64,000 nt of DNA from Dysgonomonas sp. HDW5A (lineage in GTDB: Bacteria; Bacteroidota; Bacteroidia; Bacteroidales; Dysgonomonadaceae). The notes under the pieces are model-generated. The model saw nothing but the letters and a program-made list of their open reading frames with translations. It did no database searches and was not told where the DNA came from. Location: positions 1,426,001 to 1,490,000 of the forward strand of contig NZ_CP049857.1 of NCBI RefSeq assembly GCF_011299555.1, given 5' to 3'. Made by a program: the position numbers and the translations under genes. The number at the start of each line of letters is the position of its first letter. Position 1 is the stretch's first letter. Positions 31,701 to 59,068 of the stretch are shown here, one piece after another.

Positions 31701-31955
31701 ATATCCCAGATAGGAAAATACCAATGTAGAGTTTGCGGGAGCGTTAATGGTGTATTCACCATCAAGACCGGTTATTACCCCCACTGTAGTATTCTTTACT
31801 ACTACACTGGCCCCAATAATCGGTTCATTGTTATTATCGGTAACTATACCTGATACGGTACTATTTTGCGCCTGCATCGATAAAGGTGCAAAAACAACAA
31901 GCAGCATCATCAGATGCAAAAGTTGCATGGCTTTAGCATATCGTGTTTTTATCAT
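28779..31955 (-). CDS. SusC/RagA TonB-dependent outer-membrane transporter
   Basis: This 1058-residue outer-membrane receptor imports oligosaccharides using TonB energy. A signal peptide of about 29 residues is followed by a carboxypeptidase-regulatory domain (STVSGIVTDNNNEPIIGASV). Then come the TonB-box-like DDVVVVGYGTQKK, the plug (GRIAGVRVWQK, VLKDASAAIYGVRSANGV) and a beta-barrel ending in an aromatic residue (GMSLSF). It starts 24 bases after the GH76 stop and is followed by its SusD partner, so the set is one operon. There is no STN sensor domain, which agrees with control by a separate regulator rather than by a sigma/anti-sigma pair. Confidence 0.96.
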   Translation of the reverse strand: MIKTRYAKAMQLLHLMMLLVVFAPLSMQAQNSTVSGIVTDNNNEPIIGASVVVKNTTVGVITGLDGEYTINAPANSTLVFSYLGYATREEKVNGRTQINTVMQIDANLLDDVVVVGYGTQKKASLTGAVAGVKGGEMLRTQNENPQNMLAGRIAGVRVWQKSAEPGTFNSNFDIRGLGAPLVVIDGIPRSTEEFQRLNPNDIEDVSVLKDASAAIYGVRSANGVLLVTTKSGTKEGKTRVSYNGSYTFQKVSKMPALADAFQTMTLYNERSMNNVNGGSIVYKEADFEAFRNGTRRTTDWNGLLFSSVSPQTQHDVSITGGTEKTQFFVSMGYFYQEGFFKSGDLNYNKYNIRSNINTEIVKGLTFGINLSAIADQRNNPYANATDIIRNYWRQGVLYPAYADPENTMLNYEGLDLEENTVAKMSSDISGYRKYEQKYFQSSATLNYDFGTLNPVLKGLKAKVLASLDYRQDNNTIYRKEYYQYAYDPISESYLSKLYNSSSPTQLRREFYDKQQRLGQFIVNYDRTFNTVHKVSGLLGWETQRRIGDNFYAQRDLAFAMDYLFAGIDDNQLGGMNKGNNDLYETTNAALIGRVNYAFADRYLLEAQFRYDGSSKFAPGHQWGFFPSASAGWRISEEPFFKSITAMSFVNQLKLRGSYGILGDDLANDWNYEWAGGYNYPASNSNAASGYYNQYAPGYIFGDQFIYGVDTKPVPNKLISWYESHMFNIGVDFEGWDGLFGFSFDYFDRRREGLFARQTGEFPTVIGATAPLENLNSDRNFGIDLELTHRNRINDFTYKVKAIGTIARQQHMIAVEKGPYGNSYDKWRNDNLTNRYQGVQFGYESAGRFQNWNDIHSYQLYHERDVLPGDYKYVDWNGDGQIDGLDEHPFAYDQTPWFNYSLAFDGSYKNFDASFLFQGSALGSMEYKEPLYSIWGNNGGGTLTQYLDRWHPVDPQADPYNTSTEWVSGYYGYTGHYPKTNSEFNRVSTAYLRLKSIEVGYTLPHIKSLASMNLRVFANAFNLFTITKVKFVDPEHPDDENGRMYPLNRTYTLGMSLSF

Positions 31956-31979: not shown

Positions 31980-33416
31980 TTATTTTTGGAGCTCATACTT
32001 TGCCAATACAGCATATTCGGCAGCAAAGGCAAACATGAACATTCCTTCCGTATTGTTCTTTCCCCTGTCGAGATTCCAACCAACCAGCAGATTGGTAGGA
32101 AGCATGTCTTTATAAAGGAAGTTGTCATACCCGTAATCAAGGTTCTTCTGAAAGCTATTGATACAAACATCAACAGTTTTATAGGATGGATACAGGTCTA
32201 CATAACCACGCATCAATACACCATTGAACCAATCTCTGAAACCACTGATGTCATAAGTATAATATCCGGGCTTGTTTACACCCAGTTTAGCAAAATAGCC
32301 AAAGCTTGCGGTTGACAGTTTTTGCCCATCTTCCAAATACATATTGTTACCTGTCGCACGAAATAGATCGGCTGCTCCCGAGAGCATTGTTCCACTATTG
32401 TAAGTGATTGCCGGTCCTACACGGTCAACACAAGTTCCTCCTTTACGATAAGGTACACCATCGATTATTTCTGTTTCAGGGCTTCCCGGAGTACATCCTC
32501 CCATCATATCATCATATACACCATCGGCACGCAATAAATTTTTCTTTTGCCAGTCATATATTTTTTTGGCAAAGTCCAAATAATAATCGCTTTTCTTCTG
32601 CATTTGTGTTTTTCGGGTTTTCTTGTCGGTAGCATCTATATACCGGTGCTCAATCATATCGGGTTTGCTTTTGTATAATTCGTGCAACCATACTAATGGA
32701 CTAACCATCGGTCCGTTACTACACGAATGCTTGGTTACGTAACCCGGTCCCCATGGAATACCTCCCACTTCATTTCCGTTGGCATCACGTGTGCAATCCC
32801 AACCATCGAGTACATATTCGGTTAAATATTCCGCCTTATTTAAATACTTCTGATCGTTGGTTAACTTATATGCTTCCAGCAACTCACGTACCAACCACAT
32901 CTGATCGTCGTATACATTTTCGATGCCTTCTACTTTAGCAGCACCTTTAGAGCCTCCCCTGTTAACTCCATACACTGTCCATTCTTTGGTTTGGGTATAA
33001 GAGGTTAATTCAAACGTACCTAAGTAATAATCGGCATTATCGTACAACTTAGCCAGCAAATCTACATAGCGATTGAAATGCTGATCGTATAGTGTTGAAC
33101 TGCCATGATCTTTTTGTGCCTTAAGTCCGTGAAGAATCGCATTAACTGCTTCAATAGAGCTGGTATACATCCATACACTACCTTTTTCTTCGGATCGGAT
33201 TTCTGTATACGGATTATAGTATCTTGCCATGGCCATACCATCTCCTGTAAAATAAAGAGAAATGGCCTGATCGGCTATTTGCATGGCTCGGGCAAGGTTT
33301 TGTTCAGAAAGAGTCGCCCCCCCCGACGGTTTATCGGGGGTATCGGTGGACGAACTTTCACTGCAAGCAACCGCAACCAGCAGAAAACAAGCAATTATTG
33401 TAAGAAATTTTTTCAT
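31980..33416 (-). CDS. GH76 endo-alpha-1,6-mannanase-type lipoprotein
   Basis: This 478-residue lipoprotein (lipobox AVAC, Cys18) belongs to glycoside hydrolase family 76, whose members cut the alpha-1,6-mannan backbone of yeast mannan and related glycans. The (alpha/alpha)-barrel motif with the paired catalytic aspartates is visible as NVYDDQMWLVRELLEA near residue 169. Later family landmarks include GWDCTRDANGNEVGGIPW and GGTCVDRVGPAITYNSGTML. As a lipoprotein in a SusCD operon it is probably on the cell surface and makes the oligosaccharides that the transporter imports. It lies 24 bases before SusC. Confidence 0.93.
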   Translation of the reverse strand: MKKFLTIIACFLLVAVACSESSSTDTPDKPSGGATLSEQNLARAMQIADQAISLYFTGDGMAMARYYNPYTEIRSEEKGSVWMYTSSIEAVNAILHGLKAQKDHGSSTLYDQHFNRYVDLLAKLYDNADYYLGTFELTSYTQTKEWTVYGVNRGGSKGAAKVEGIENVYDDQMWLVRELLEAYKLTNDQKYLNKAEYLTEYVLDGWDCTRDANGNEVGGIPWGPGYVTKHSCSNGPMVSPLVWLHELYKSKPDMIEHRYIDATDKKTRKTQMQKKSDYYLDFAKKIYDWQKKNLLRADGVYDDMMGGCTPGSPETEIIDGVPYRKGGTCVDRVGPAITYNSGTMLSGAADLFRATGNNMYLEDGQKLSTASFGYFAKLGVNKPGYYTYDISGFRDWFNGVLMRGYVDLYPSYKTVDVCINSFQKNLDYGYDNFLYKDMLPTNLLVGWNLDRGKNNTEGMFMFAFAAEYAVLAKYELQK

Positions 33417-33520: not shown

Positions 33521-35353
33521 TTATTTTAAATCAATCGAATAGAAAACCAATTTATTCTCGCCCGAATTGGCAACTCCATTGTATACTCCAAAGGCAAGTA
33601 CTACGTTATTACCATTAAACTGCGACAGATCATATACAAACGAAGCATAACCTTCGGGATTACCTGCTCCACCGTCTCCATGTTTAAATTTCCAACAGCC
33701 ATTACTTGCCGAGGATGCTTCCTGAGCTGTATTGGATTTAGGTGCTATATGGGTCACAGTACCATCTTCTTTAATAGCTGTCAATTTAAAGTATGTAGGG
33801 TTACTTCCGAAGTTTCGGGTTTTCAATGTCAACTGATTACTTCCTGAAGCAATGGCAAATTTGGCATAGTAATACGATTCGGGAACTTCGGTACTTACTT
33901 CGGATGTATTACGGGTTTTGATTAAGTAACCTTCAGAGGGGAATACTTCGGGGTCTTTCTTCAAAGGAACAAACGACCATTCGTGTCCGATGTGTGAAAC
34001 TGCACGCCATGCCTGATAAGCTGCCGGATATCCGGTTTGCATATTCACATCCCTTCCTGCACTGATAGGACTTATACCTGTAAAATGCTTTTTCGTCTGG
34101 GGCATAGTAGAACGTACTGTTTCTTGTGTAAGTTTCCATCCGTCTATTACTTCGTTACCCGGTAACCAATCCCAGCCTTCAACCTTTCTGTCGGCAAAAC
34201 GAACTGCACGAAGAACAAGTTGTTTCCAGTAATCTCCTGTTTCTTTGCGATAGATACCAATAGCAACAATTACTTCTTTGCCAACGTATGCACTCAGGTC
34301 GAAAGTAAAGTCGGTGTAATTACCTGATCCGTATTGCTTAGTTTCTCCTATTTGTACTGCTTGAGGTTCGGCTGCCGAAAGGTCAACTACCTGTACACCA
34401 AAGTAAGCCGGTGATGCTTCATCAGCATTATGTGTACGTAGTCTCACCGAAAGGATTTTGTTATCTGCCGTAATCTTTTTGCTGCCGTATGTATACGAGT
34501 CAAACACTTCCAAGTCGGCAGGATTAGTGCGGTCACCCGGATCATTACGGATTTGCAATGTTGTACCTTCCCATTGTTCTTCCCACTTACCTTTAAAGGT
34601 CATCGAGCTGAAATAGTTACAAGCCCAATCCCAATGAGGGTAAGCATCGGCATTACCTCCACCACGGTATTCATTATAATACCATTTATCGGCAGTTAAC
34701 AAATCGGCTAAGGTTAAACCACGTAGAAGTTCTGCTCCTCCCATTACTACATCCAATGTTACCATTCCGTCAACAAAATCGGCTTTGCTCACTTTTTTTG
34801 TCTGGGTTACATAATTGGCTTTAATAAATGTTACGACATAATCATCGGCAATGAGGTTTTCGAGGCTATATTTACCATCTGCCTCAGTAGTGGCCGATAC
34901 TGCTGGAGTTATACTGACTGTTACTCCGGAAAGTGGTGCTCCTCCGTTCTTTCCATCGGTAATGATACCGGAAATTTTCGCTGAAGCATTTACCATTGCC
35001 ACTGTGGTGGTAGCAACTTTATTACCATCAAATTTATCGGCTGTAACCGTCAGACTGACTGTTTGATATCCCGTTTTTGAGAAGGTAACGGAATGCGACT
35101 CGATAGAAACATTTTCGAATGTGTATTTTCCGTCGGTTCCGGTATTTATTGTTGCCTCGGTTCCGCCCATTCCTCCCATTGTAACGGTAACTCCGTCAAT
35201 GGGTACTCCTGCTTCATCAAGCACAACACCGGTAATTGTACCTATACCTTTACTGACCGGATCATCGTCATTATTACAGGAGCTTACTACACACACTATA
35301 GTTCCTAGCAAGACCATGAACATAAAAGTTCGTAAAATCTTTAATAATTTCAT
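33521..35353 (-). CDS. Surface lipoprotein with carboxypeptidase-regulatory and duplicated jelly-roll domains
   Basis: This 610-residue lipoprotein (lipobox VVSSC, Cys26) has an N-terminal pair of carboxypeptidase-regulatory-like domains (GTITGVVLDEAGVPIDGVTV and AKISGIITDGKNGGAPLSGV, about residues 38-205). Two similar beta modules follow. The first contains FDLSAYVGKEVIVAIGIY and the second contains YDLSQFNGNNVVLAFGVY, which points to an internal duplication of a carbohydrate-binding-like fold. No catalytic motif is seen. Its place between GH92 and GH76 suggests a surface glycan-binding protein, comparable in role to SusE/SusF, that holds mannan near the mannanase. Confidence 0.85.
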   Translation of the reverse strand: MKLLKILRTFMFMVLLGTIVCVVSSCNNDDDPVSKGIGTITGVVLDEAGVPIDGVTVTMGGMGGTEATINTGTDGKYTFENVSIESHSVTFSKTGYQTVSLTVTADKFDGNKVATTTVAMVNASAKISGIITDGKNGGAPLSGVTVSITPAVSATTEADGKYSLENLIADDYVVTFIKANYVTQTKKVSKADFVDGMVTLDVVMGGAELLRGLTLADLLTADKWYYNEYRGGGNADAYPHWDWACNYFSSMTFKGKWEEQWEGTTLQIRNDPGDRTNPADLEVFDSYTYGSKKITADNKILSVRLRTHNADEASPAYFGVQVVDLSAAEPQAVQIGETKQYGSGNYTDFTFDLSAYVGKEVIVAIGIYRKETGDYWKQLVLRAVRFADRKVEGWDWLPGNEVIDGWKLTQETVRSTMPQTKKHFTGISPISAGRDVNMQTGYPAAYQAWRAVSHIGHEWSFVPLKKDPEVFPSEGYLIKTRNTSEVSTEVPESYYYAKFAIASGSNQLTLKTRNFGSNPTYFKLTAIKEDGTVTHIAPKSNTAQEASSASNGCWKFKHGDGGAGNPEGYASFVYDLSQFNGNNVVLAFGVYNGVANSGENKLVFYSIDLK

Positions 35354-35608: not shown

Positions 35609-37918
35609 TTACTTCTTTTTTCTAGATATAGTTGTTGTTTTTAATTCATTTGAAAACGAGTAAGGAAAATCGGCAGCATTGATTCCTCTTTGCTTATTTG
35701 GGGTCGGAGACATTTTGAAGTCAATTGCAGCACCTTTCAACAATTCATCATAAGTCAGATAGTTTTTGGTATAAGGTTGCCCGTCTACTGATAATGACGA
35801 AATATATCTGTTTACTTTTCCGTTGTTTTCGGCTTTAATGCGAACTTGCTTTCCATTTTCCAGATTAAGTTTTACACTCTTAAATAAAGGAGATCCTATT
35901 ATATATTGGTCTGCTCCGGGGCAAACTGGATAAAAGCCTAAAGCTGAAAACACATACCAGGCTGAAGTTTGTCCGTTATCTTCATCACCGCAATATCCGT
36001 CGGGATTAGGTGTATATAACTTATCCATTACTTCTCTCACCCAATATTGAGCCTTCCAGGGTTCTCCTGAATAATTGTATAAATAAATCATGTGCTGAAC
36101 GGGTTGATTTCCATGTGCATAATTACCCATATTCATTATCTGCATCTCTCTGATTTCGTGAATCACACCTCCGTAATAACTATCGTCAAATAAAGGGGGT
36201 ACATTGAATACCGAATCGAGCATCTGGTTGAAACCGTTCTGTCCTCCCATCAAGTTAATCAATCCCTGAGGGTCATGGAATACCGACCAAGTGTAATGCC
36301 AGCTATTGCCTTCGGTGAAAGCATCTCCCCATTTCAAAGGATTAAACGGTGATTGGAAAGTTCCATCTTCGTTACGTCCTCTCATAAGTTTGTGCTCGGG
36401 ATCGAACAGATTCTTATAATTCATCGCTCTTTTGGCGTATATCGCGATTTCTTTCTCGGGTTTATTCAGTGCCTTTCCCAGTTTATAGATAGTCCAGTCG
36501 TCATATGCATACTCTAATGTACGAGCTGCACTTTCATTGATGCCTACATTGTATGGCACATATCCTAGCTTGTTGTAATATTGATATCCTAGACGGCCGG
36601 TTGAACTTACCGTGGGATGTACACTGTTGGCTCCGCTGACAACTGCTTCCCAAAGAGTTTCGATGTCATATCCTCTCAGTCCTTTGAGATAAGCATCTGC
36701 TACTACGGATGCGGAATTGTTACCAACCATACAGCCTCTGTGACCGGGACTAGCCCACTCGGGTAAAAATCCGCTTTCTTTGTATGTGTTGGCCAAACCT
36801 TCCTGCATCTTCGCATTCATAGATGGATACATCAGATTCAGGAACGGAAACAGAGAGCGGAATGTATCCCAAAATCCGGTATCGGTAAACATATATCCGG
36901 GCAATACTTCTCCGTTATAAGGACTGTAATGTACAGGCTTTCCTTCGGAATTAATTTCATAGAAACTACGGGGAAACAGCACCGAACGATACAGGCATGA
37001 ATAGAATGTGCGAAGGTTATCAATATTATCGTCTTCGACTTCAATACGTCCTAATACTTTATTCCACTCATTTCGACCTTTGGCTGTTATCTGGTCAAAA
37101 GTATCATTACCCAATTCTTTCAGATTTAATTCTGCCTGATCGTAGCTGATAAACGAAGATGCTACTTTAGCATGTACAACTTCTCCTTTTTTAGTGGAGA
37201 AACCGATGATTGCTCCGGCATGATTTTCTTTTGCTTCCAATACACCTTTTTGTATTGTATTGTTGACTGAAGAAGCGGTGTGAGTGAATGGTTTATCAAA
37301 TACGATGACAAAATAATTCTTGAAATTATCGGGTACTCCTCCACTGTTTTTTGTGGTATAACCGATAATCTTATTTTGTTCAGGAATGATCTTCACATAC
37401 GATCCGTTATCGAATGCATCTACGATTACTGACGAATTATCATTCTCAGGAAAGGTAAACCGAAACATAGCTGCACGTTCGGTAGGTGTAATTTCGGTAA
37501 CCACATCATGATCGGCTAGATAAACACGATAATAATAAGGTTTGGCAACTTCTGCTTTATGAGAGAACCAACTGGCACGCTCATCCTGATCAAAAACAAC
37601 TTTGCCTGTAATGGGCATAATTGCAAATTGCCCGTAATCGTTTATCCAAGGGCTGGGTTGATGGGTTTGCTTAAAACCTCTGATTTTGTCGGCATCATAG
37701 GTATATGCCCAACCATCGCCCATTTTGCCGGTTTGCGGCATCCAGAAGTTCATACCCCATGGCATAGCTATTGCCGGATAGGTATTACCTGTAGACAGCG
37801 AATGTTTAGATTGTGTGCCAACCAACGTACTCACATAATCGACAGGAGTAGTCTGGGCATTCAGTTTAATAGAAAAAAAAGAAATGATTAATAAAAATAA
37901 GACAGTAAGATTTCGCAT
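35609..37918 (-). CDS. GH92 alpha-mannosidase
   Basis: This 769-residue enzyme has a signal peptide (ending near LNAQ) and no lipobox, so it is periplasmic. Family 92 members are calcium-dependent exo-alpha-mannosidases. The beta-sandwich N-terminal domain begins with VDYVSTLVGT, and the (alpha/alpha)6 domain carries the expected general acid Glu536 in EGNSWHYTWSVF. The acidic base region reads D645-E646-D647 in GDEDNGQTSAWYVFSALGFY. The GH92 at the right edge has NDD at the same place, so the two may differ in linkage preference. It is the first gene after a promoter with repeated TTAACC motifs and opens the locus. A hairpin of unclear role lies at 35539-35558. Confidence 0.95.
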   Translation of the reverse strand: MRNLTVLFLLIISFFSIKLNAQTTPVDYVSTLVGTQSKHSLSTGNTYPAIAMPWGMNFWMPQTGKMGDGWAYTYDADKIRGFKQTHQPSPWINDYGQFAIMPITGKVVFDQDERASWFSHKAEVAKPYYYRVYLADHDVVTEITPTERAAMFRFTFPENDNSSVIVDAFDNGSYVKIIPEQNKIIGYTTKNSGGVPDNFKNYFVIVFDKPFTHTASSVNNTIQKGVLEAKENHAGAIIGFSTKKGEVVHAKVASSFISYDQAELNLKELGNDTFDQITAKGRNEWNKVLGRIEVEDDNIDNLRTFYSCLYRSVLFPRSFYEINSEGKPVHYSPYNGEVLPGYMFTDTGFWDTFRSLFPFLNLMYPSMNAKMQEGLANTYKESGFLPEWASPGHRGCMVGNNSASVVADAYLKGLRGYDIETLWEAVVSGANSVHPTVSSTGRLGYQYYNKLGYVPYNVGINESAARTLEYAYDDWTIYKLGKALNKPEKEIAIYAKRAMNYKNLFDPEHKLMRGRNEDGTFQSPFNPLKWGDAFTEGNSWHYTWSVFHDPQGLINLMGGQNGFNQMLDSVFNVPPLFDDSYYGGVIHEIREMQIMNMGNYAHGNQPVQHMIYLYNYSGEPWKAQYWVREVMDKLYTPNPDGYCGDEDNGQTSAWYVFSALGFYPVCPGADQYIIGSPLFKSVKLNLENGKQVRIKAENNGKVNRYISSLSVDGQPYTKNYLTYDELLKGAAIDFKMSPTPNKQRGINAADFPYSFSNELKTTTISRKKK

Positions 37919-38081: not shown

Positions 38082-38146
38082 CAAATGTATGCGGGCATGG
38101 TTAACTATTGGGTTAATTTGCGATTAAAAAAGGGTTAGAAGGTTAA
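38082..38146 (-). promoter_or_regulatory. Candidate promoter and direct-repeat operator of the mannan locus
   Basis: On the minus strand a TACATTTG -7 box lies at 38089-38082, with no TTTG element at -33. Just upstream, TTAACC-like hexamers occur at 38099, 38111, 38122 (TTAATC), 38133 (CTAACC) and 38141, at steps of 12, 11, 11 and 8 bases. The nearest hexamer ends nine bases from the -7 box. A further CCATTAACC lies at 38047-38055 inside the leader. Direct repeats one helical turn apart near the -10/-7 element are the known binding layout of SARP regulators, and the gene just upstream encodes a SARP-like DNA-binding domain. The rest of 37919-38281 shows no gene. Confidence 0.55.
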
Positions 38147-38281: not shown

Positions 38282-40804
38282 TTATGCTTTGTTGTCATTC
38301 AACAGAGAGGTAAAACCGATAGAATAATTTTCATTCATTACCTTCTTATATTCTGCAGAGAATAATAGATATTTATTTTTTGCCTGATCGGGCATTTTCA
38401 ATTTTATAAGAGAATGTATTTGATAATACAAGGCTTCCTCGTTGAGTGAATCAATATTAAAAAGAGTATCAACAAGCAGTAAGGTTGTTTGATAATCTTG
38501 CTGAGCATATCTGCTTTCTATTTCCATTTGTAAAATAGATTCCGCTTTATTTTCAATTTCCAGTTTAAAAGAATCGAACATTTCGTCTTCGGTATTTTTC
38601 AGAAATTTACCTCTTATCAGAATCTCAATCAGCTCTTTGTTATTAACTATATTCTCCCCTTTGATTATTTCAAAAAACCGCTTGTAATCACAATAACATC
38701 CATCGGATAATACAATCTTGAAGAATCCTTTATCGTGAATAAGTTCTACATTATTAAGCTCAGCTAAGGCTTTACGTATATGGTTAAGTGTTACACCTTT
38801 CAGATTCTTTGCTTTATTTTCAGATTTATCAGGCCAAAGAATATCACTCAATTGCTGTGACGAGATACCGTCTTCGAGACTATATTGAAGAATCAGCAGA
38901 AAAGTTTGTTTCAGCTTTGTACTGAACATGTAGGTAATGTCTTTATTATTTCGATCCCTTACCGTAAATTCACCAAAGAGATAGATTGAATTGGGCTGAT
39001 CTTTTCTTTCAAAAGATTCCTGAGACATTTCATCCTGACGCTCTAAAACACTCAGAGCTTCGTGAGTATCAGTATTTGTTTTTTTCGCTCTTCGCTTTAC
39101 ATAAAATACACACACACCTCCTACAACAAACACCCCAATAATAACACCCCAAATGTAGAGCATCGATTCATCTTTGCCCATTCCCGAAAGTTCTTCAAGA
39201 CTTATGGGTGGAAAAGATAAAGAGTACACACGGGCTACTGACGATATATCGCTGGCATCGAATTCCTGAACGGTGCAGTATAACTCATTCAACTTTTCAT
39301 TATAATATAAATTGGCATTTGTCGTAATTTTATCGGAACGAATAGGAATTGAATCTCCAAGAATATCGAAACTCCCGTCTTTAACAGAAAAACGGTACAG
39401 TTTCAACGATGTATTCGAAAAATGTTCAGGATAACATAAAGTATAGAAACATGAATCGTCGAGCATTATCATACTACGCACGGGAACTACATTATCTCCA
39501 TGCCAAGGTATTTCCCATAATTTAGTGATCTTCTTTTCATTGAGGTCAACTTTATATAAATCATAATAATAACGACGACCAATAGTTTGATCTCCCGAAT
39601 CATTTCCCATACCTCCAAAAACGTATAAGGAGTTTTCTTCCTTTTTATAGCACATCGAGGAGAAGTATCGGGGAGTTATCCTATCTCCTTCGAATGATAG
39701 TCGGCTCCATTTTTTTTCGATCAAGTCATACGAATAAAATTCTTTGTTATAATGCTGACTTCCAAATCCGCCAAATACGAGATAGCGGTGATTAGCTGCA
39801 TCATAATAACTGTTGTGATGATGCAGTTGAGTCGGTAACCTGTCTACACTCTCTGTTGTCCACATTAAAGTATTGAGATCAAGATAAGCAGAGGTAGCGA
39901 CCTCAGCCGCTTCTTCAGAATATACCTCGTATGCATATAAACGATTGTCTGCCTTATCCACAAAACTCATACCGAGCTTGAGCTTTACAGGTAATTCGTT
40001 TTCATATTTTTTAGATGATACAGCATTAGAACGGACATTGAAAAATGTGATCGAATCTTTATCAAAAAAGTATATATCCTGAGTCTGGCTATTAAAATTC
40101 AAGCCTGCTACATTTTTTGATTTGAAAGAAGCTCTTGGTGCCCAGTAGTAGGCATTATTTATCAACCAAACAGGACTGGAAACGTGACCTCTGGCCTTAC
40201 CTTTCGAGTCATGCACAAACTCTCCCTCATTTTCATTTAAATGAAAAAAATATTCCTGCTGTGTATCTTTAATAATCACGTTTTTAATGGCAAATGAGGG
40301 TATATCGACAACATGCTCACTTTTACCGAAATAGATAACAGGATTCCATTTTTCAAGAAGATTCAATCCTCCTATTCTTGTTTCTTTATCATTAATCTTC
40401 AAAGTCATGGAGTCTTGTTGGAGATCAAATGATAAGCTGATACTCACCCACTGGCAATTAGAGAGTTCTTCTTTCTTGAAAATACTGGTAATTAAATTGT
40501 TTCGCCCCTCTTCATTAAATTTAAAGACGGTATTTTCACGCCCTTCATTATCATACATCAAATTATAAGTTGTATTGAGGTTAGTATCTTTCAATCTGAA
40601 AATATAACCGACATTAGAGGGTGGCAGCAACGATAATTCGAAATTAATAACCAGCTTTTCAGTAAAAGCCGGAGATCCATTTTCAAATACAGAATATGAA
40701 GTTCTCTCATTAATTACACTTTCATTTCCATGAAATCGTAATCCTTGAGAAAAAATATTTAGGGGAAAAAGTAATAGTAAAACGAAATGCACAACTAGTT
40801 TCAT
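38282..40804 (-). CDS. Membrane-spanning kelch/SARP-like transcription regulator
   Basis: This 840-residue protein combines an extracytoplasmic sensor with a cytoplasmic DNA-binding domain. Residues 1-19 are a signal peptide. Residues about 20-190 look like a concanavalin/LamG-type beta domain, and residues about 220-530 carry kelch-type repeats (YLVFGGFGS, LYVFGGMGN). A single membrane helix lies near 549-569 (YIWGVIIGVFVVGGVCVFYV). After a linker, residues about 606-705 match an OmpR/SARP winged helix (YLFGEFTVRDR, SSQQLSDILWPD, LNHIRKALAEL), followed by a helical region like the bacterial transcriptional activator domain. No kinase or receiver domain is present. It is encoded directly upstream of the mannan locus on the same strand and probably activates it. 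The architecture differs from HTCS, SusR and sigma/anti-sigma regulators. Confidence 0.8.
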   Translation of the reverse strand: MKLVVHFVLLLLFPLNIFSQGLRFHGNESVINERTSYSVFENGSPAFTEKLVINFELSLLPPSNVGYIFRLKDTNLNTTYNLMYDNEGRENTVFKFNEEGRNNLITSIFKKEELSNCQWVSISLSFDLQQDSMTLKINDKETRIGGLNLLEKWNPVIYFGKSEHVVDIPSFAIKNVIIKDTQQEYFFHLNENEGEFVHDSKGKARGHVSSPVWLINNAYYWAPRASFKSKNVAGLNFNSQTQDIYFFDKDSITFFNVRSNAVSSKKYENELPVKLKLGMSFVDKADNRLYAYEVYSEEAAEVATSAYLDLNTLMWTTESVDRLPTQLHHHNSYYDAANHRYLVFGGFGSQHYNKEFYSYDLIEKKWSRLSFEGDRITPRYFSSMCYKKEENSLYVFGGMGNDSGDQTIGRRYYYDLYKVDLNEKKITKLWEIPWHGDNVVPVRSMIMLDDSCFYTLCYPEHFSNTSLKLYRFSVKDGSFDILGDSIPIRSDKITTNANLYYNEKLNELYCTVQEFDASDISSVARVYSLSFPPISLEELSGMGKDESMLYIWGVIIGVFVVGGVCVFYVKRRAKKTNTDTHEALSVLERQDEMSQESFERKDQPNSIYLFGEFTVRDRNNKDITYMFSTKLKQTFLLILQYSLEDGISSQQLSDILWPDKSENKAKNLKGVTLNHIRKALAELNNVELIHDKGFFKIVLSDGCYCDYKRFFEIIKGENIVNNKELIEILIRGKFLKNTEDEMFDSFKLEIENKAESILQMEIESRYAQQDYQTTLLLVDTLFNIDSLNEEALYYQIHSLIKLKMPDQAKNKYLLFSAEYKKVMNENYSIGFTSLLNDNKA

Positions 40805-41736: not shown

Positions 41737-41764
41737 AAAAGACCTGAGACCTTTTATTTCTTTG
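41737..41764. repeat. Hairpin repeat relative, copy F
   Basis: AAAAGACCTGAGACCTTTTATTTCTTTG resembles the dispersed hairpin family but with imperfect pairing. It overlaps the stop codon of the epimerase gene and lies 12 bases from the palindromic repeat. Confidence 0.35.
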
Positions 41765-42908
41765 TCGAAAACTTATAAATACAAGTTTGTGTATATTCTT
41801 CTCCCGGATTTAATCGGGTAGATGGAAATTGAGGTTGATTGGGTGTATCAGGATACTTTTGAGTTTCCAAAGCCACCGCTTCTCTGAATTTATGAGCCTT
41901 ACCGTATTTACCTATAACTTTTCCATCGAAGAAATTACCGCTATAAAATTGTATACCGGGCTGGTCTGACCATACTTCCATTACTCTACCACTAGTGGGT
42001 TCATATAGGCTTGCTATAAGCTCTACGTCTTTTTCAGTTTTGCGGTCTACTACCCAGTTGTGATCGTATCCTAAACCATTTTTCAGTTGTTCGTCATCAG
42101 CATCTATTCTTGCTCCGATAGCTGTTGGTGTTCTAAAATCAAATGGAGTTCCTTCGACCAACGTAATTTTACCGGTTGGTATCAAAACAGTATCCACAGG
42201 AGTAATTGCACTTGCATTTAGAGTCAATATGTGATCGGTAATCGCACCATTTCCGACTCCCTTTAAATTAAATAACGAATGATGCGATAGGTTTACATGT
42301 GTAGGCTTATCAGTTGTAGCACTATAAGTTATCTTAAATTCATTTTCAGGAGTAAGGGTATATGTCATTGTCACTTTTACAGTTCCCGGAAATCCCTCCT
42401 CACCATCGGGAGAAATATAAGACAATTGAATCTGATTTTTGCTGACACTATCTACGTTCCAAACTTTCATATCGAAACTATCGGGTCCACCATGTAAAGT
42501 CTGTCCATTGTTATTAACAGGTAATTGATATTTTACTCCGTCAAGTGTGAACTTTCCTTTGGCAATACGATTGGCAAATCGACCGACAACGGGACCCAAG
42601 AAGCGTTCGCCTTCGTAGTTTATGTATTCGTTGATGTTGTTATGTCCCAAAACAATATCCTCATACTTTCCATCCTTATCGGGAGTCCAAAGAGAAATAA
42701 CTCTTCCTCCGAAATTAGATACCTGCATGGTTATCCCATTTCCCGAATCGAGTGTGTAAAGTTTGATTTCTTTGCCATCTACTGTTTTTGTAAATGCAGA
42801 ATCTGCCATTAAGGTAATTTGGGAGCCTTCTACTTGTGGTGGTGTAGTTGGTTTATTATTACATGAGAACAAACAAAGGGCAATCCCTAAATAAAAAATC
42901 TTTTTCAT
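41754..42908 (-). CDS. galM: Aldose 1-epimerase (galactose mutarotase) lipoprotein
   Basis: This 384-residue lipoprotein (lipobox LFSC, Cys16) belongs to the aldose 1-epimerases, which interconvert alpha and beta anomers of galactose, glucose and arabinose. Family motifs seen are NNNGQTLHGG, the histidine in THVNLSHHSLFNL, and the catalytic glutamate near FREAVALETQKYPD. The lipobox places it in the periplasm or on the surface rather than the cytoplasm. It lies downstream of the arabinose operon but is separated by 374 bases rich in repeats. Both of its flanks carry copies of a palindromic repeat in inverted orientation. Confidence 0.93.
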   Translation of the reverse strand: MKKIFYLGIALCLFSCNNKPTTPPQVEGSQITLMADSAFTKTVDGKEIKLYTLDSGNGITMQVSNFGGRVISLWTPDKDGKYEDIVLGHNNINEYINYEGERFLGPVVGRFANRIAKGKFTLDGVKYQLPVNNNGQTLHGGPDSFDMKVWNVDSVSKNQIQLSYISPDGEEGFPGTVKVTMTYTLTPENEFKITYSATTDKPTHVNLSHHSLFNLKGVGNGAITDHILTLNASAITPVDTVLIPTGKITLVEGTPFDFRTPTAIGARIDADDEQLKNGLGYDHNWVVDRKTEKDVELIASLYEPTSGRVMEVWSDQPGIQFYSGNFFDGKVIGKYGKAHKFREAVALETQKYPDTPNQPQFPSTRLNPGEEYTQTCIYKFSTKK

Positions 42909-42933
42909 ATATGTATAAGTTTTGGTTGTTTAT

Positions 42934-42971
42934 AAAGCTCTCAGAGCTTTTTATTGCTTTGATAAGCATAA
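42934..42971. repeat. Dispersed hairpin repeat, copy B
   Basis: AAGCTC-tca-GAGCTT is followed by TTTATTGCTTTGATAAGCAT. Compared with copy A the stem pair changed from GGTC/GACC to GCTC/GAGC, so pairing is preserved. It lies 26 bases before the epimerase start. Confidence 0.6.
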
Positions 42972-43056
42972 TCTCTAAAGGCAGTTAGAATTATAAAATA
43001 TAACTGTCACTATTTGTTGTTTATCAAAATAAGATTCAAGACTTTAAAGATAGAAA

Positions 43057-43091
43057 ATTCTCACTGCTCTTTAGTTGCTAACAGTGAGAAT
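43057..43091. other. 10-bp perfect hairpin between transporter and epimerase genes
   Basis: ATTCTCACTG (43057-43066) and CAGTGAGAAT (43082-43091) enclose a 15-nt loop. It could end the arabinose operon transcript or regulate the epimerase gene. No T-run is present. The gap 42909-43282 holds this hairpin and three repeat copies, with no gene. Confidence 0.45.
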
Positions 43092-43117
43092 AATCAAGAA
43101 ATACAAAATAACTAGAT

Positions 43118-43147
43118 AAGCTCTCAGAGCTTTTTATTGTTTGGGTT
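43118..43147. repeat. Dispersed hairpin repeat, copy C
   Basis: AAGCTCTCAGAGCTT followed by TTTATTGTTTGGGTT directly abuts the palindromic repeat at 43148. The stem is identical to copy B. Confidence 0.6.
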
Positions 43148-43205
43148 GTAGGGTGTGAATCTCTCTGTTCACCTGAAGTTTACAGACACATAGGTCTGCC
43201 CCTAC
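43148..43205. repeat. Palindromic repeat element, copy 2, inverted
   Basis: The right end reads CACATAGGTCTGCCCCTAC, the exact inverse of the left end of copy 1. The left end (GTAGGGTGTGAAT) is degenerate. Together the two copies bracket 1,536 bases containing the epimerase gene. Confidence 0.75.
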
Positions 43206-43282
43206 CAATAAAGATATCTCATTAAATATTTAACGCTACTTTATATATATTGTCTCTTATTTTACTTAAAGAATACATCTTC

Positions 43283-45028
43283 TTACCAGAAATACCAATA
43301 GAATAATCCACAAAGGGCGACTACACCAAGGGATGCAATAACATCCCACTTGTTCCAGCTCTTTCCGATAATTTTCTTATAGTCATCGGTGAAAGTGATA
43401 GCTTCTATCTGTTGAGCAGTTGGCTTTGGAGTGAAAAACGACACTACAACCATCATCAGCATGATGAAGACAAGCAACCATACTTCGAAGATAAGCCAGT
43501 TGGTCTGCCAAAACCAAGTTGTACACTCCCAGTACCAACCCGTCATTACGTCTTTACCCGTATTGGTAAAGATATTGGTCAGCAAGCGAGCCATACCGAT
43601 AATAAAACCGACTATCATACCTGCTTCTCCTGCTTTCGGAGTGATTCTTTTAGAAAATATACCCAATGCGAATACTGCTACCATGGCAGGTGCAAGCAGC
43701 GATTGAATACCTTGCAGATAATCGTAAAGGCTACCGAGGCTCATCATAATAGGTATCCATATAATACCAAGTATTACTACAACAATTGTTGCAACACGAC
43801 CTACCATAACGTAGGTAGCTTCACTCTTCTCTTTGAACTTCGGTTTATAAAAATCTTCCGTAAACAGCGTAGCACAAGAGTTGAAGAATGCCGCCAAAGA
43901 AGCAACCAATGCAGATATAAAACCGATGGTAACAATACCTTTTACACCGGCAGGTAATACAAATTTAACCATTGACCCAAAGGCGGTATCAGGGTGATCC
44001 AATGTGAATCCACTGTCGGGACGTGCTGCCAATGCAGCAGCTACCATACCCGGTATAAGGAACATAAATACAGGCAACAACTTGAAATAGCCGGCAGCGA
44101 TTGTACCTCTGCGTGCACGTTTCATCACAACATCGTTATCCTCTCCTTTGCGTTGTCCGAGCACACGCTGAACGATATGCTGATCGGTACACCAATACCA
44201 AAAACCGATAATGGATGCTCCGATAAATACCCAGAAGCCGGGATAATCGTCATACAACGGATCGCCCGTATTGAAGTGGAACATGTGATTTGTACCGTGT
44301 GCAACTCCGTCGGGTCCAACGTTTAGTGTTTTAGAATAGTCAATCATCGCAGTCCATCCATCAGCAATACTTCCGTATCCGAGTGCTGATAATCCTAAGA
44401 AAAGCACGAGAAACGAGCCAATGATAAGTATAGGTGTTTGAATTGCAGAGAGGGTCATTACACCTTTCATTCCTCCCAAAACCGTAAATATACCCGTTAA
44501 GACTATCAAACCGATTGCCCCATACCAGAAAGGCAAGCCCAGAAGGCTCTCCATAAAAATACCACCGGTGAAGGCTGTTACACTTACTTTGGTCAATACA
44601 TACGCAATAAGGGTAATGATAGACAACCACGAACCTGTAGCAGGCGTATAACGGTATTTAAGGAAGTCGGGCATGGTGATAATTTTGCCCATCTTATTAT
44701 TCATCAACTGATAGAAAGGTACAAAGAGCCACCCCAAGAGGAGTATCATCCAGCCTTGCATTTCCCAGTGTGCCATACCCACACCTGCTTTTGCTCCTGT
44801 TCCGGCAAGCCCGACAAGGTGTTCCGAACCGATATTTGCAGCAAAAATAGCTGCTCCAATGATATACCATGGCTCGCCTTTACCAAACAGGTAGTCCTCG
44901 CTATTGGCTCCCTGCTGCAAACGTTTGTCTTTTTGTACCGAACGCCAAACAGCCCATGTTACTGCCAGGATACCTACGGCAATAATCAACCAGTCCAGCC
45001 AAATAAACTCATGTGAATTCCAATTCAT
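43283..45028 (-). CDS. Sodium:solute symporter (SSS/SLC5 family), probable arabinose transporter
   Basis: This 581-residue inner-membrane protein belongs to the sodium/solute symporters. About 14 hydrophobic segments are seen. The conserved core includes FAANIGSEHLVGLAGTGAKAG (first part), FLKYRYTPATGSWLS and GGMKGVMTLSAIQTPIL, with the sodium-site helix near FISALVASLAAFFNSCATLF. The C-terminal helix WDVIASLGVVALCGLFYWYFW is typical of sugar members. It lies 103 bases after araB on the same strand. By operon position it should import L-arabinose, as seen for similar loci in Bacteroides; the sugar specificity cannot be read from sequence alone. Confidence 0.9.
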   Translation of the reverse strand: MNWNSHEFIWLDWLIIAVGILAVTWAVWRSVQKDKRLQQGANSEDYLFGKGEPWYIIGAAIFAANIGSEHLVGLAGTGAKAGVGMAHWEMQGWMILLLGWLFVPFYQLMNNKMGKIITMPDFLKYRYTPATGSWLSIITLIAYVLTKVSVTAFTGGIFMESLLGLPFWYGAIGLIVLTGIFTVLGGMKGVMTLSAIQTPILIIGSFLVLFLGLSALGYGSIADGWTAMIDYSKTLNVGPDGVAHGTNHMFHFNTGDPLYDDYPGFWVFIGASIIGFWYWCTDQHIVQRVLGQRKGEDNDVVMKRARRGTIAAGYFKLLPVFMFLIPGMVAAALAARPDSGFTLDHPDTAFGSMVKFVLPAGVKGIVTIGFISALVASLAAFFNSCATLFTEDFYKPKFKEKSEATYVMVGRVATIVVVILGIIWIPIMMSLGSLYDYLQGIQSLLAPAMVAVFALGIFSKRITPKAGEAGMIVGFIIGMARLLTNIFTNTGKDVMTGWYWECTTWFWQTNWLIFEVWLLVFIMLMMVVVSFFTPKPTAQQIEAITFTDDYKKIIGKSWNKWDVIASLGVVALCGLFYWYFW

Positions 45029-45095
45029 ATGTATAAGATCATTTAAGTAATTTCAACTATTTAGTACTCCATTTTATAGCCATAACTACCTTTTT

Positions 45096-45133
45096 GGTTC
45101 TACCTGCCAAGGCAATAAAAACTCTAAAAGGTT
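45096..45133 (-). repeat. Dispersed hairpin repeat, copy D
   Basis: The minus strand reads TTTTTATTGCCTTGGCAGGT after a poorly paired stem. It lies between araB and the transporter gene and touches the araB stop codon. The tail matches copy A at nearly every base. Confidence 0.5.
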
Positions 45134-46799
45134 ATGAAAATAATTCTGTTTCAGTAAATTTTCCAAGCTTCCGGTACTTTTCGTATACCAACATATAAAT
45201 ACGGTGATTATCCATATTCGGCTGATATTCGAAAGCAAAACCTTGCCCCATGGCGGCTTGTGCTTCTTTTATCGTAGGATGTACGCCGGCTGCTACTGCG
45301 GCAAACATGGCTGCACCAAAGGCACAGGCTTGTTCGGATTTAGCTACTTTAATAGGCATACCCAATACATCTGCCAGTGTTTGCATAACAAGGGGCGATT
45401 TCAATGAAATACCTCCTATTCCTATTACACTTTCTATTTCGATGCCATTTTCGAGGAAACGATCTACAATCGCTTTTGACCCGAACGCCGTTGCTTCTAC
45501 TAATGCTTTAAAAATGATAGGTGCATTACTAGCCAGATTCAGTCCTGTGATTGTACCCTTTACCAATTGATTAGCATCGGGCGTTCTGCGTCCGTTCATC
45601 CAGTCAATTGCTAAAACGCCACTTTCTGATGCCGGTATTTTTGCTGCCTCTTTCGATAAGGCTGGAATCATTTTGTCTAAAGCTTCTGCTATTAATTTAT
45701 CTTTTGTTGCCTGATCTATTAAAGACGATTCTTTAATCAGATTTTCGATTGGCCAAGCCAATACCGATTTGAACCAAGCGTATATATCCCCGAATCCCGA
45801 CTGTCCTGCTTCTAAGCCGATCATTCCGGGAACTACCGAACCGTCAACCTGTCCGCATATTCCGGGGATTAGCTTTCCATGCATATCTTCGTATGGAACA
45901 ATCATTATATCGCAGGTAGATGTTCCGATTACGCGCACAAAAGTTTTAGGTCCGATTTCCGCACCTACTGCTCCCATGTGACAATCGAATGCACCGACTC
46001 CAACAGCTACATTGGTAGTAAGACCTAATCTGTCTGCCCATTCCTGAGTAAGATTACCGACTTTAACATCACTTGTGTATGTGTCTTTAAACAGTCTGTC
46101 TCTGTAACCCTTAAGCAAGGGTTCTACTTCGGTCAAAAAATCGTCTGTTGGCAGTCCGTCCCATTCTTTGAGCCACATAGCTTTGTGTCCCGCCGAACAA
46201 CGGCTTCTTATAATATCAGATGGTTTTGTAGTATTGGTTATCAAGGCCGGCATCCAATCGCAATGTTCTATCCAGCAATAAGCTGCATCACGAATTGTTT
46301 CATCTACTTTTAAAACATGTGCCATTTTTGCCCATACCCATTCGCTCGAATAGATACCCCCTTCGTAAGCTGTATAATCAATAGGCCACCTTTTAGCTAC
46401 TTCATTGATCTTTGCGGCTTCCTTCACTGCTGTGTGATCTTTCCAAAGAACAAACATGGCATTTGGATTCTCGGCAAATTCGGGTCTCAATGCCAGTACT
46501 TGCCCCTCTTTATCGATAAGTGCAGGTGTTGAGCCTGTTGTATCAAATGATATCCCGACAACATTTTCGGCTGTACCTTTAGGTGATTTGCTTAAAGCTT
46601 CTTTTACAGATTCTTCAAGGCTTTCGATATAATCAAGGGGATGTTGTCTGTATTGATTTTTGTGTGGGTCACAGTATTTACCTTCTGCCCAACGCTTGTA
46701 GTATTTTACGGACGAAGCTATCTCTTTTCCGGTTTCGGCATCTATGATAACAGCCCGACAAGAATCTGAGCCATAATCCAGTCCAATTGTATATTTCAT
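45132..46799 (-). CDS. araB: L-ribulokinase
   Basis: This 555-residue FGGY-family kinase phosphorylates L-ribulose to L-ribulose-5-phosphate with ATP in the cytoplasm. The N-terminal IGLDYGSDSCRAVIID phosphate-binding strand, the central RSRCSAGHKAMWLKEWDG, the GVGAFDCHMGAVGAEIG segment and the C-terminal GIGGISLKSPLVMQTLADVL match ribulokinase. The length fits the family. It is third in the order araD-araA-araB-transporter, 101 bases after araA. Control is expected from the Nudix-type AraR through the operators upstream of araD. Confidence 0.96.
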   Translation of the reverse strand: MKYTIGLDYGSDSCRAVIIDAETGKEIASSVKYYKRWAEGKYCDPHKNQYRQHPLDYIESLEESVKEALSKSPKGTAENVVGISFDTTGSTPALIDKEGQVLALRPEFAENPNAMFVLWKDHTAVKEAAKINEVAKRWPIDYTAYEGGIYSSEWVWAKMAHVLKVDETIRDAAYCWIEHCDWMPALITNTTKPSDIIRSRCSAGHKAMWLKEWDGLPTDDFLTEVEPLLKGYRDRLFKDTYTSDVKVGNLTQEWADRLGLTTNVAVGVGAFDCHMGAVGAEIGPKTFVRVIGTSTCDIMIVPYEDMHGKLIPGICGQVDGSVVPGMIGLEAGQSGFGDIYAWFKSVLAWPIENLIKESSLIDQATKDKLIAEALDKMIPALSKEAAKIPASESGVLAIDWMNGRRTPDANQLVKGTITGLNLASNAPIIFKALVEATAFGSKAIVDRFLENGIEIESVIGIGGISLKSPLVMQTLADVLGMPIKVAKSEQACAFGAAMFAAVAAGVHPTIKEAQAAMGQGFAFEYQPNMDNHRIYMLVYEKYRKLGKFTETELFS

Positions 46800-46900
46800 A
46801 TTCTATTCAAATTCAGATTAATAAAACAGTTATCTAAGTTGAGACCTAAAGCCCCGAGGATCAAAGCATCCCCAAGGCTATCGGTCAAACCTTAACTAAC

Positions 46901-48406
46901 TTACTGTAATGCTTTATTTAGCAAATAGAACACTTCGTTTACTTTCAATTCGAATTTGAACTTGTTGATAGTTGTGTCTTTATCAATAGTTATCAATTCG
47001 ATTCCGGCTATATCGGCATAGTCTTCCAAAAACTCATTGGTCAATGCATATGAGAATGATGTATGATGAGTACCTCCGGCTAATATCCAAGCTGCTGCAC
47101 CTATTTCAAGATTGGGTTGTGGTATCCACAAAGCACTTGCAACGGGTAATTTGGGTAATGCGGCTTTAGGCTCGATAACATCTACATTATTTACAATCAT
47201 ACGGAAACGATTACCCATATCTACGATGGTTGCTGCAACTCCTGTTCCTGCATGAGCTGTGAAAACCAAACGTGCAGGATCGGCTTTACCGCCAATACCT
47301 AAGGGATGAACTTCCAATCGTGGTTTTTGAGTTGTAATTTCGGGAGATACTTCCAACATATGAGATTGAAGAATTGCACTTTGCTCTCCATCGAAATGAT
47401 ATGTATAATCTTCCAGGAATGAGGTTCCTCCGGGTAATCCTTTCGCCATCACCCACATAGTTCTAAGCAAGGCAGCTGTTTTCCAGTCACCTTCTGCACC
47501 AAAACCGTAACCTTCTGCCATCAATCGTTGGCAAGCCAGACCGGGTAATTGATTCAAACCATGCAAGGCATTGAAATTGGTTGTAAATGCTTTCGCTCCT
47601 TTGTCTTTCAAGAAGCGGCGAAGAGCTATTTCTTCACGGGCAGCCTCACGTACTTGTCCGTGATTTTTTGCTCCTTTTTTGCAATCGTCTGCAAATATGT
47701 ATTCTTTTTCGTATTCTGCAACTAAGGCATCTACGTCTGATTCTGTTACTTTATCTTGGAAAGCGACTAAATCACCTACTCCATAGTAATCGTTGTGATA
47801 ACCTAGTCTCAATTCAGCTTCTAATTTGTCGCCATCGGTTACAGCCACATTATTCATATTGTCACCAAAACGAACAATAATCATTCCCTGAGCATCTGCC
47901 CAAGCTGCTGCAACACGTTGCCAAACGGCTATTTTAGCCTGAACTTTGGCATCAGACCAATGTCCTACAACTACTTTTCGGTTTTTACGCATACGGCTTA
48001 CCATGTGACCAAATTCACGGTCGCCATGTGCCGATTGATTCAGGTTCATGAAATCCATATCGATTTCTGACCATGGAATTTCTTTATTAAATTGAGTATG
48101 AAGATGTAAAAGTGGTTTTTTATAATCCTTTAAGCCTTGAATCCACATTTTTGCAGGCGAGAAGGTATGCATCCATGTAATAATACCGATACATTTGGGG
48201 TCATTATTTGCTTCCGAGAAGGTTTTCGATACTTCGGCAGAAGAGTTTACAGTTCCTTTAAATACTACTTTAACAGGCAGTGTACCTGCTGCATTCAAGC
48301 CTTTTACTATTTCAGTAGAATGTGCATTCACTGCTACAACAGCATCTCCACCATACAATAATTGTGCTCCGGTTACAAACCAAACTTCTAAATCTTTGAA
48401 TTCCAT
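46901..48406 (-). CDS. araA: L-arabinose isomerase
   Basis: This 501-residue cytoplasmic enzyme converts L-arabinose to L-ribulose and needs a divalent metal such as Mn2+. Family blocks are WFVTGAQLLYGGD at the N-terminus, then WMHTFSPAKMWIQGL, NFNALHGLNQLPGLACQRLM with the following EGYGFGAEGDWKTAA, and HHTSFSYAL near the end, which contribute the metal-binding Glu and His residues. The length equals the usual 500. It lies 66 bases after araD in the arabinose operon. Confidence 0.97.
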   Translation of the reverse strand: MEFKDLEVWFVTGAQLLYGGDAVVAVNAHSTEIVKGLNAAGTLPVKVVFKGTVNSSAEVSKTFSEANNDPKCIGIITWMHTFSPAKMWIQGLKDYKKPLLHLHTQFNKEIPWSEIDMDFMNLNQSAHGDREFGHMVSRMRKNRKVVVGHWSDAKVQAKIAVWQRVAAAWADAQGMIIVRFGDNMNNVAVTDGDKLEAELRLGYHNDYYGVGDLVAFQDKVTESDVDALVAEYEKEYIFADDCKKGAKNHGQVREAAREEIALRRFLKDKGAKAFTTNFNALHGLNQLPGLACQRLMAEGYGFGAEGDWKTAALLRTMWVMAKGLPGGTSFLEDYTYHFDGEQSAILQSHMLEVSPEITTQKPRLEVHPLGIGGKADPARLVFTAHAGTGVAATIVDMGNRFRMIVNNVDVIEPKAALPKLPVASALWIPQPNLEIGAAAWILAGGTHHTSFSYALTNEFLEDYADIAGIELITIDKDTTINKFKFELKVNEVFYLLNKALQ

Positions 48407-48472
48407 GATATATAAATTTTTGGGATTAATCTTATAGTTATACTTAATTAGTTACGAGTTACGAGAGAAAGT

Positions 48473-49156
48473 TTATTGACCGTAATAAGCATCGGGTCCG
48501 TGTTTTCTGAAAAAATGTTTCTTGATAAGGTCATCATTCATTTTCAATTGTGGATTTACAGCGAATGATATGGATGCCATCTTAGCAACCTGCTCCAATA
48601 CAACAGCATTATGTACCGCATTATGTGCATTCTTTCCCCACGAAAATGGTCCGTGATTATTTACTAAAACTCCGGGAGTATATTCTGCATTTAAATCTTT
48701 GAAGCGTTCTACAATTACATTACCTGTTTCCAGTTCGTATTTATTTTCGATTTCGTCAGAGGTCATTTGTCGGGTGCATGGTATGGCATCCTTAAAGTAA
48801 TCGGCATGCGTAGTTCCAATATTAGGAATATCGCAACCGGCTTGTGCCCAAGCTGTAGCATAGGTAGAATGGGTATGAACTATTCCTCCGATTGCAGGAA
48901 ATGCTCTGTATAAAACAAGATGTGTAGCGGTGTCTGAAGATGGTTTCAGCTTTCCTTCGATCACATTACCATCCAAATCTACCACCACCATATCGTCGGC
49001 TGTCATTACATCGTATGATACTCCCGATGGTTTAATGACTACCAATTGAGAATTTTGGTCTATTGCACTGACGTTTCCCCAGGTAAATAGTACCAATCCG
49101 TGCTTTACCAGATCAAGGTTAGCTTCAAAAACTTCTTTCTTTAATGTTTCTAACAT
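48473..49156 (-). CDS. araD: L-ribulose-5-phosphate 4-epimerase
   Basis: This 227-residue class II aldolase-type enzyme converts L-ribulose-5-phosphate to D-xylulose-5-phosphate, feeding the pentose phosphate pathway. The zinc-binding histidines are visible in [16 protein letters not shown], with the serine/glycine-rich phosphate site in KPSGVSYD and SSDTATH, and the second His in [13 protein letters not shown]. It is the first gene of the arabinose operon; two palindromic operator candidates lie within 80 bases upstream. In Bacteroidetes AraD this gene-first order next to araR is common. Confidence 0.96.
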
Positions 49157-49181
49157 ACCATTACAAGGTTAAATGCAAAAT

Positions 49182-49234
49182 AAGTGTTTTCGTTACACTT
49201 GCAATATTAGCAATAAGTGTACAAAACAACACTT
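49182..49234 (-). promoter_or_regulatory. Two AraR operator candidates upstream of araD
   Basis: AAGTGT-N7-ACACTT lies at 49182-49200 and AAGTGT-N8-ACACTT (extended to ATAAGTGT/ACACTTAT) at 49213-49236. Their centres are about 33 bases apart, near three helical turns. They lie 26 to 80 bases before the araD start, where a repressor would block transcription. Confidence 0.75.
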
Positions 49235-49273
49235 ATCGACCATGTGTTATAAAACATATTAGAAATAAAAAAA

Positions 49274-49314
49274 GTCTCACAATAGATTATCGAAGCAATA
49301 ATCTATTATAAGAC
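49274..49314 (-). terminator. Terminator of araR
   Basis: A 10-bp perfect stem (AATAGATTAT / ATAATCTATT, 7-nt loop) is extended by GTCT/AGAC. On the minus strand it is followed by GACTTTTTTTATTT. It separates araR from araDAB. Confidence 0.85.
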
Positions 49315-49340
49315 AAGTAATTATTCGTTATAAAAATATT

Positions 49341-51461: not shown

Positions 51462-51734
51462 GACAGAATCTTAATAAGCAGTTCACCTTTACGTAATTAT
51501 ATTACTATGTCTCACTTAAAACGATCCGAATAGTACCGGATTTATTAAACCTAAGAATAATATTCTCAATACAAAACAGAAAAGCGATTTACTCTATTCT
51601 CAGAACTTTACTAAACAGCCAAATAATATATTTAGTTTTACAGGCTAATACCCTTGTTTTTCCATAGGTCTTTTGTATATTCAAAACATCGTAGTAGTAG
51701 TATTGTTAAACTAATTATAGGGGTCGTTATTTTT

Positions 51735-55805: not shown

Positions 55806-55827
55806 ACTTTACCTATATCATAAAATA

Positions 55828-55878: not shown

Positions 55879-55915
55879 AATTAAGATGGGGGCATCAAAA
55901 GCTTATTAACTAATA

Positions 55916-59032: not shown

Positions 59033-59068
59033 AGAATAGATGAGTATTTACATATCAAAGTAACAAAT

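Follow-up and report, generated by a model that had tools for sequence, protein, structure and literature searches.

The locus

The window, that is, the whole stretch of DNA analysed here, comprises 64,000 nucleotides. It contains the gene of a putative regulator and, on the same strand, a PUL. The genes are the following, with the basis of each assignment in parentheses:

38282-40804 (-), regulator gene, 840 aa, ATG at 40804 and stop at 38282 (ORF and structure model)
35609-37918 (-), GH92, first gene behind the predicted operator (Pfam, NCBIfam)
33521-35353 (-), carboxypeptidase regulatory-like domain protein (Pfam)
31980-33416 (-), GH76 (Pfam)
28779-31955 (-), SusC (Pfam, NCBIfam)
26680-28737 (-), SusD (Pfam)
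25831-26646 (-), DUF3823 protein (Pfam)
23529-25715 (-), unknown 728-aa protein, called P728, conserved in the family's loci (homologue loci)
20631-23132 (-), GtaA-like protein, which closes the cluster behind a 396-bp gap, a shared transcript not being shown (Pfam)

The first-pass annotation of this DNA, made from the letters alone, had placed the regulator directly upstream of a mannan-type locus, and this is what is found, as it precedes GH92 through GtaA with all genes on one strand. The presence of GH92 and GH76 points to alpha-mannan as the substrate. For P728, no significant match was obtained in Pfam, NCBIfam or the PDB; relatives of it occur in 45/80 regulator loci, often behind DUF3823.

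Two neighbouring clusters can be mentioned here. Adjoining the mannan-type locus is an L-arabinose cluster (41754-50033, minus strand) with GalM, an SSF symporter, an FGGY kinase, AraA and a class II aldolase, within which a Nudix/NrtR-AraR-type regulator is located at 49341-50033. At 51654-60733 on the plus strand, a classical HTCS (51654-55805) is directly followed by a second SusC/SusD pair, so that a PUL of the conventional kind is found close to the SARP-linked one described below.

Architecture of the regulator

The regulator gene is present as a single copy in its own 4.3-Mb genome, and the following parts can be assigned to the protein:

40745-40804 (-), signal peptide, residues 1-20 (read from the sequence)
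40178-40741 (-), LamG-like beta domain, residues 22-209 (structure model; weak Laminin_G_2/3 in homologues)
39215-40141 (-), kelch propeller, residues 222-530 (Pfam, model, Foldseek)
39077-39169 (-), membrane helix, residues 546-576 (structure model and sequence)
38708-38989 (-), OmpR/SARP-type winged helix, residues 606-699 (model, Pfam of homologues, Foldseek, profile comparison)
38765-38821 (-), predicted recognition helix, residues 662-680 (structure model and homologue conservation)
38297-38689 (-), BTAD helical domain, residues 706-836 (model, Pfam of homologues, Foldseek, profile comparison)

Sequence and model together thus contain every part that had been read at first pass, namely a signal peptide, a beta domain, kelch repeats, one membrane helix, a winged helix and a BTAD-like end in one chain of 840 residues. 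The winged helix, expected at residues 606-705, appears in the predicted structure at 606-699, with helices at 629-642, 649-656 and 662-680 and a wing at 686-699. The model has a mean pLDDT of 90.4 at full length and of 95.4 when the cytoplasmic part is modelled alone. Because the identical domain order recurs in about 80 homologues, the architecture can be taken as real and chance can be excluded.

The kelch identity of residues 222-530 is certain, both by Pfam (PF24681 at 2.2e-20 and Kelch_3 at 1.6e-11 with the query sequence) and by fold, with Foldseek matches to the LZTR1/KLHDC2 kelch propellers at 3e-12. The beta domain in front of it is much less clear. Laminin_G_2/3 matches were obtained for a few of 41 members (best 5e-4), and LamG-like is a best guess from weak sequence matches. 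The motif KRRAKK near the end of the membrane helix indicates that the C-terminus is most likely cytoplasmic. In the predicted recognition helix, N667 and V671 are invariant among 59 homologues, while N674, L676 and R677 are conserved in at least 90%.

The cytoplasmic half as a SARP domain

With the query sequence alone, neither Pfam nor NCBIfam detects the winged helix or the BTAD. A domain search for kelch, Trans_reg_C and BTAD, as proposed in the first-pass annotation, does return all three, kelch in the query and the other two only via its homologues. Among the homologous cytoplasmic domains (n=58), BTAD (26/58, best 3.6e-6) and Trans_reg_C (9/58) are the top two Pfam families. A Foldseek search of the cytoplasmic model against the PDB gives six matches below E 0.001, all of them AfsR/EmbR (7.5e-6 to 8.7e-5) with alignments of about 240 columns; the match that ranks next has an E-value of 0.056. 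In an hhalign comparison, the family profile matches seven Bacteroidota BTAD proteins (SARPs) with E 8.5e-23 over 232 columns that span both domains, and a search with the same profile retrieves soluble, TPR-linked and receiver-linked BTAD proteins of other Bacteroidota.

Two features tested for a SARP are met by these results: an OmpR-type winged helix, by AF2, Foldseek and the Trans_reg_C matches, and a BTAD immediately behind it, by the BTAD matches in homologues and by hhalign. Judged by profile and by modelled fold, the cytoplasmic half of the regulator is a SARP domain, that is, a winged helix with a BTAD.

Distribution and genomic linkage

Full-length homologues with the same domain order were found in Dysgonomonas, Bacteroides, Draconibacterium, Mucilaginibacter, Parapedobacter, Belliella, Algoriphagus, Cesiribacter and others; Bacteroides fragilis and B. 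cellulosilyticus are among the species, and a homologue with 87% identity is present in Dysgonomonas alginatilytica (L023). These species come from a collection scan with an alignment of six close sequences, one of 15 sequences being too diverse for it. A family match was obtained in only 12/396 sampled genomes of the phylum. The family is hence broad in Bacteroidota and not common.

A genome survey for the same domain order, also suggested at first pass, with susCD as neighbour, yields about 80 homologues, most of them linked to PUL genes. In 63/80 loci, GH92, GH76, GtaA, DUF3823 or P728 lies within 10 kb, these labels being phmmer matches to the window's own proteins. GH92 alone occurs in 40/80 loci, whereas about 0.04 would be expected in a locus of 22.5 kb, as calculated from 258 GH92 genes in 25 of the family's genomes (about 141 Mb).

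It is important to point out that the signal sensed by the regulator could be something other than a mannan oligosaccharide, for example another sugar, a part of a glycoprotein or a peptide, with the rest of the proposal unchanged. The composition of the loci does vary (GH76 in 18/80, GtaA in 16/80, DUF3823 and P728 in 40-45/80), the markers are absent from 17/80, and some distant homologues adjoin, and would regulate, different genes, for example those of GH43 or of GLUG/T9SS surface proteins. The loci without markers and these distant homologues mean that mannan is not the family-wide signal. For the window itself, however, GH92 and GH76 point to alpha-mannan, and the alpha-mannan loci of B. 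thetaiotaomicron also pair mannosidases with SusCD (PMC3878776). A different ligand is a possibility to be taken seriously, although we do not consider it the probable case.

Some individual loci deserve mention. No PUL adjoins the distant homologues L129 and L126, whose neighbours are a surface protein of the GLUG/T9SS type or a Big_1 protein; the family thus extends beyond glycan loci. The 458-aa protein at L113:1486-2859 (-) has a signal-peptide-like start, a beta-helix region and a membrane helix followed by a similar winged helix, and is possibly another sensor fused to the same kind of output domain. The homologue at L118:1498-3432 (-) lacks a recognisable kelch propeller but has the beta domain, the membrane helix and the SARP domain, and a full-length copy is adjacent. 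L130, L131 and L134 contain two adjacent regulator-like ORFs each; the pair in L134 may be one gene interrupted by stops.

Predicted operator and promoter

The regulator and GH92 are separated by a gap of 363 bp, in which two elements are predicted:

38099-38138 (-), operator of four TTAACCC-like direct repeats with spacings of 11, 11 and 12 bp (motif score, genome pattern search)
38082-38089 (-), -7 box TACATTTG, 8 bp past the last repeat (promoter-geometry search)

The repeat was obtained from an unsupervised EM motif search of 43 dereplicated regions upstream of PUL genes adjacent to the regulator. Without having been given any SARP promoter rule beforehand, the search returned a tandem TTAACCC repeat with a log-likelihood of 398 at width 22, to be compared with 88-90 in shuffles. 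The sites of the family consist of three or four heptamers, spaced by 11 or 12 bp and directed towards the PUL gene. A score with flexible spacing reaches at least 16 in 54/63 regions upstream of regulator-adjacent PUL genes, all in one orientation, and in only 4/54 regions for non-adjacent PUL genes and 2/217 for other genes. The first of these figures includes the training sites, and many of the regions are from one genus (Mucilaginibacter). Upstream of the regulator itself, sites are present in 14/76 regions; the ten best were inspected and all point away from the regulator, several being the same site already counted for a divergent PUL gene.

The site in the window scores 28.1, while the next best tile in the 64 kb has 8.7 and none of 2000 shuffles reaches this value. 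The window region resembles L023 too closely and had been left out of the training, and no Dysgonomonas sites entered the half-site matrix, with the caveat that its sites were chosen with a matrix that had seen some of them. A strict three-repeat pattern is unique in the 4.3-Mb genome and occurs only at the window operator.

Two other ways of scoring were less useful. With a rigid-spacing matrix the window site is borderline (16.7, with maxima of up to 16.9 in 20 shuffled windows), because the spacing varies between 11 and 12 bp, which the flexible-spacing score resolves. A looser genome pattern, with TAAYM as third repeat, is matched by 43/61 relatives, but about equally often in the backward control, so that it does not discriminate. 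The specificity rests therefore on the scored sites, the fixed spacing to the -7 box and the strict pattern in the genome itself.

Beside several distant homologues (about 22-31% identity), a motif-blind repeat search finds TTAACCC-like triples. For L127, L129, L131 and L134 none of 60 shuffles is as good, for L125 one of 60 is, and L126 is weaker (9/60). L124 and L132 carry a related CTTAATA repeat, and this search gave nothing clear beside L128, L130 and L133.

In L131 a perfect TTAACCC triple is located between the two regulator-like ORFs, and further tandem TTAACCC-like sites exist away from the fetched regulator at G402:C128:2872-2910, G403:C55:3013-3051 and G412:C7:239640-239668, which are perhaps operators of paralogues or of second targets.

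One could object that the repeats belong to another regulator and that the kelch protein is merely encoded in the same cluster, as there are no binding data for them and roughly one or two looser forms of the repeat can be expected by chance in each genome. The repeats do, however, track the regulator gene, as the counts for adjacent and non-adjacent PUL genes show, they do so in co-directional and divergent arrangements as well as beside homologues outside PULs, and their architecture is that of a SARP operator. We find this objection scarcely tenable. The direct repeats of published SARP promoters have a period of 11 or 22 bp, and their 3' copy is 8 bp away from the -10 element (PMC10936776); the site bound by PimR comprises three heptamers separated by 4-bp spacers (PMC5930380). 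The predicted operator meets the first of these rules, direct repeats at 11 bp, from which the 12-bp variant departs slightly.

The second rule is met as well. A TAnnHTTG box is found at a fixed place after the last heptamer in 37/53 sites, at 8 bp in 14 and at 9 bp in 23, with a shuffled control of 0.07 per offset, and the distance in the window is 8 bp. The strict box is missing at the expected place in the other 16/53 sites, some of which have near variants. Scanning the region for sigma-70 promoters in general gave chance level only. The Bacteroidota promoter consensus has elements at -33 and -7, and the -33 TTG was found in 0/37 of the promoters with a -7 box, which is as expected if an activator is needed.

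These observations bear on the direction of control. Since the operator abuts the promoter box, the protein could in principle sit on the repeats in the absence of glycan and block the promoter. The lack of the -33 TTG fits instead with activator dependence, and SARPs with such an operator placement are activators (PMC10936776). Repression is accordingly very improbable, and activation is inferred from the operator placement and the missing -33 box.

Proposed mechanism

On the basis of the computed architecture, SARP homology, linkage, conserved operator and promoter geometry, we propose that the protein is a membrane-anchored one-component SARP activator of the adjacent PUL. We hold this with high confidence, bearing in mind that protein-operator binding, activation, the ligand and the choice between tethered and released action are inferred. 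The LamG-like domain and the kelch propeller would be located in the periplasm and would sense a product of the glycan degraded by the adjacent locus. One predicted helix would span the inner membrane and link this sensor to the cytoplasmic SARP domain, which would occupy the tandem repeats (38099-38138) side by side along the same face of the DNA. Placed 8 bp from the -7 box, the bound domain would replace the missing -33 contact, and, as with AfsR, RNA polymerase would be recruited to the GH92-GH76-SusCD operon. Given the location of the operator in the gap, the most likely targets of the regulator are GH92 and the genes that follow it, as far as SusCD and further.

It is also possible, but in our view unlikely, that a regulator of the same SARP type signals by regulated proteolysis, in which cleavage would free the cytoplasmic domain from the membrane to act as a soluble protein. 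Behind the membrane helix, at about residues 574-600, the model (pLDDT <50) predicts a disordered linker that is long enough for a cleavage site. It is, on the other hand, short and poorly conserved, and no protease gene is seen next to the regulator in the window. ToxR and CadC act while tethered to the membrane. Tethered action has also been reported for the membrane protein SusR (PMC3878776).

The suggestion at first pass that the protein is a membrane-anchored one-component regulator of the locus is thus supported by the domain anatomy, the conserved linkage to PULs and the predicted SARP-type operator that precedes the adjacent operon. Its likeness to ToxR and CadC, suggested at the same time, holds for the mode of action only, as the sensor is N-terminal and outside and the DNA-binding domain C-terminal and inside.

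Comparison with known systems

ToxR and CadC share with the regulator an OmpR-type winged helix, one membrane helix and a periplasmic sensor. Their order, with an N-terminal cytoplasmic winged helix and a C-terminal periplasmic sensor, is reversed in the present protein, and to our knowledge they have no BTAD.

The dedicated PUL regulators in the literature are of three kinds, HTCS, SusR-like and ECF/anti-sigma, of which HTCS are the kind that serves the alpha-mannan PULs of B. thetaiotaomicron (PMC3878776). The regulator resembles an HTCS in combining a large periplasmic sensor and a DNA-binding domain in one chain beside the PUL that is controlled; Pfam and NCBIfam find no histidine kinase, receiver or AraC domain in it. 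The same searches find no sigma or anti-sigma domain. With SusR it shares being a membrane protein with a periplasmic sensor, a cytoplasmic DNA-binding domain and PUL activation, the last being inferred for the regulator, while the DNA-binding domain of SusR is described as unlike other known ones (PMC3878776). A full-text literature search, limited to open-access papers, found no published description of a SARP or kelch PUL regulator. Pfam sees only kelch in the family, and NCBIfam leaves it unnamed.

The closest relation is to the SARP family (AfsR, EmbR, PimR; Trans_reg_C and BTAD), with which the regulator shares the DNA-binding half in fold, profile and order. Tandem direct repeats about one helical turn apart and 8-9 bp from the promoter box characterise the SARP operators and are the same in the predicted operators of the regulator's loci. 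The SARPs studied so far are soluble and mostly actinobacterial, with an N-terminal SARP domain, whereas the one described here is C-terminal, is preceded by a periplasmic kelch sensor and a membrane helix, and occurs beside PULs of Bacteroidota. On the features tested the regulator is filed as a SARP, and what is new is the C-terminal position, the membrane tether, the periplasmic kelch sensor and the association with Bacteroidota PULs.

We consider it probable that a Bacteroidota-wide family of transmembrane SARPs with LamG-kelch sensors activates SARP-type promoters from the membrane and constitutes a fourth kind of PUL regulator, next to the three known ones. If this is true, a family known to Pfam only as kelch acquires a role and an operator, and its regulons can be predicted from sequence in Bacteroidota of gut and soil, among them Bacteroides fragilis and B. 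cellulosilyticus. SARPs would then extend from soluble activators of antibiotic clusters to the sensing of glycans at the membrane.
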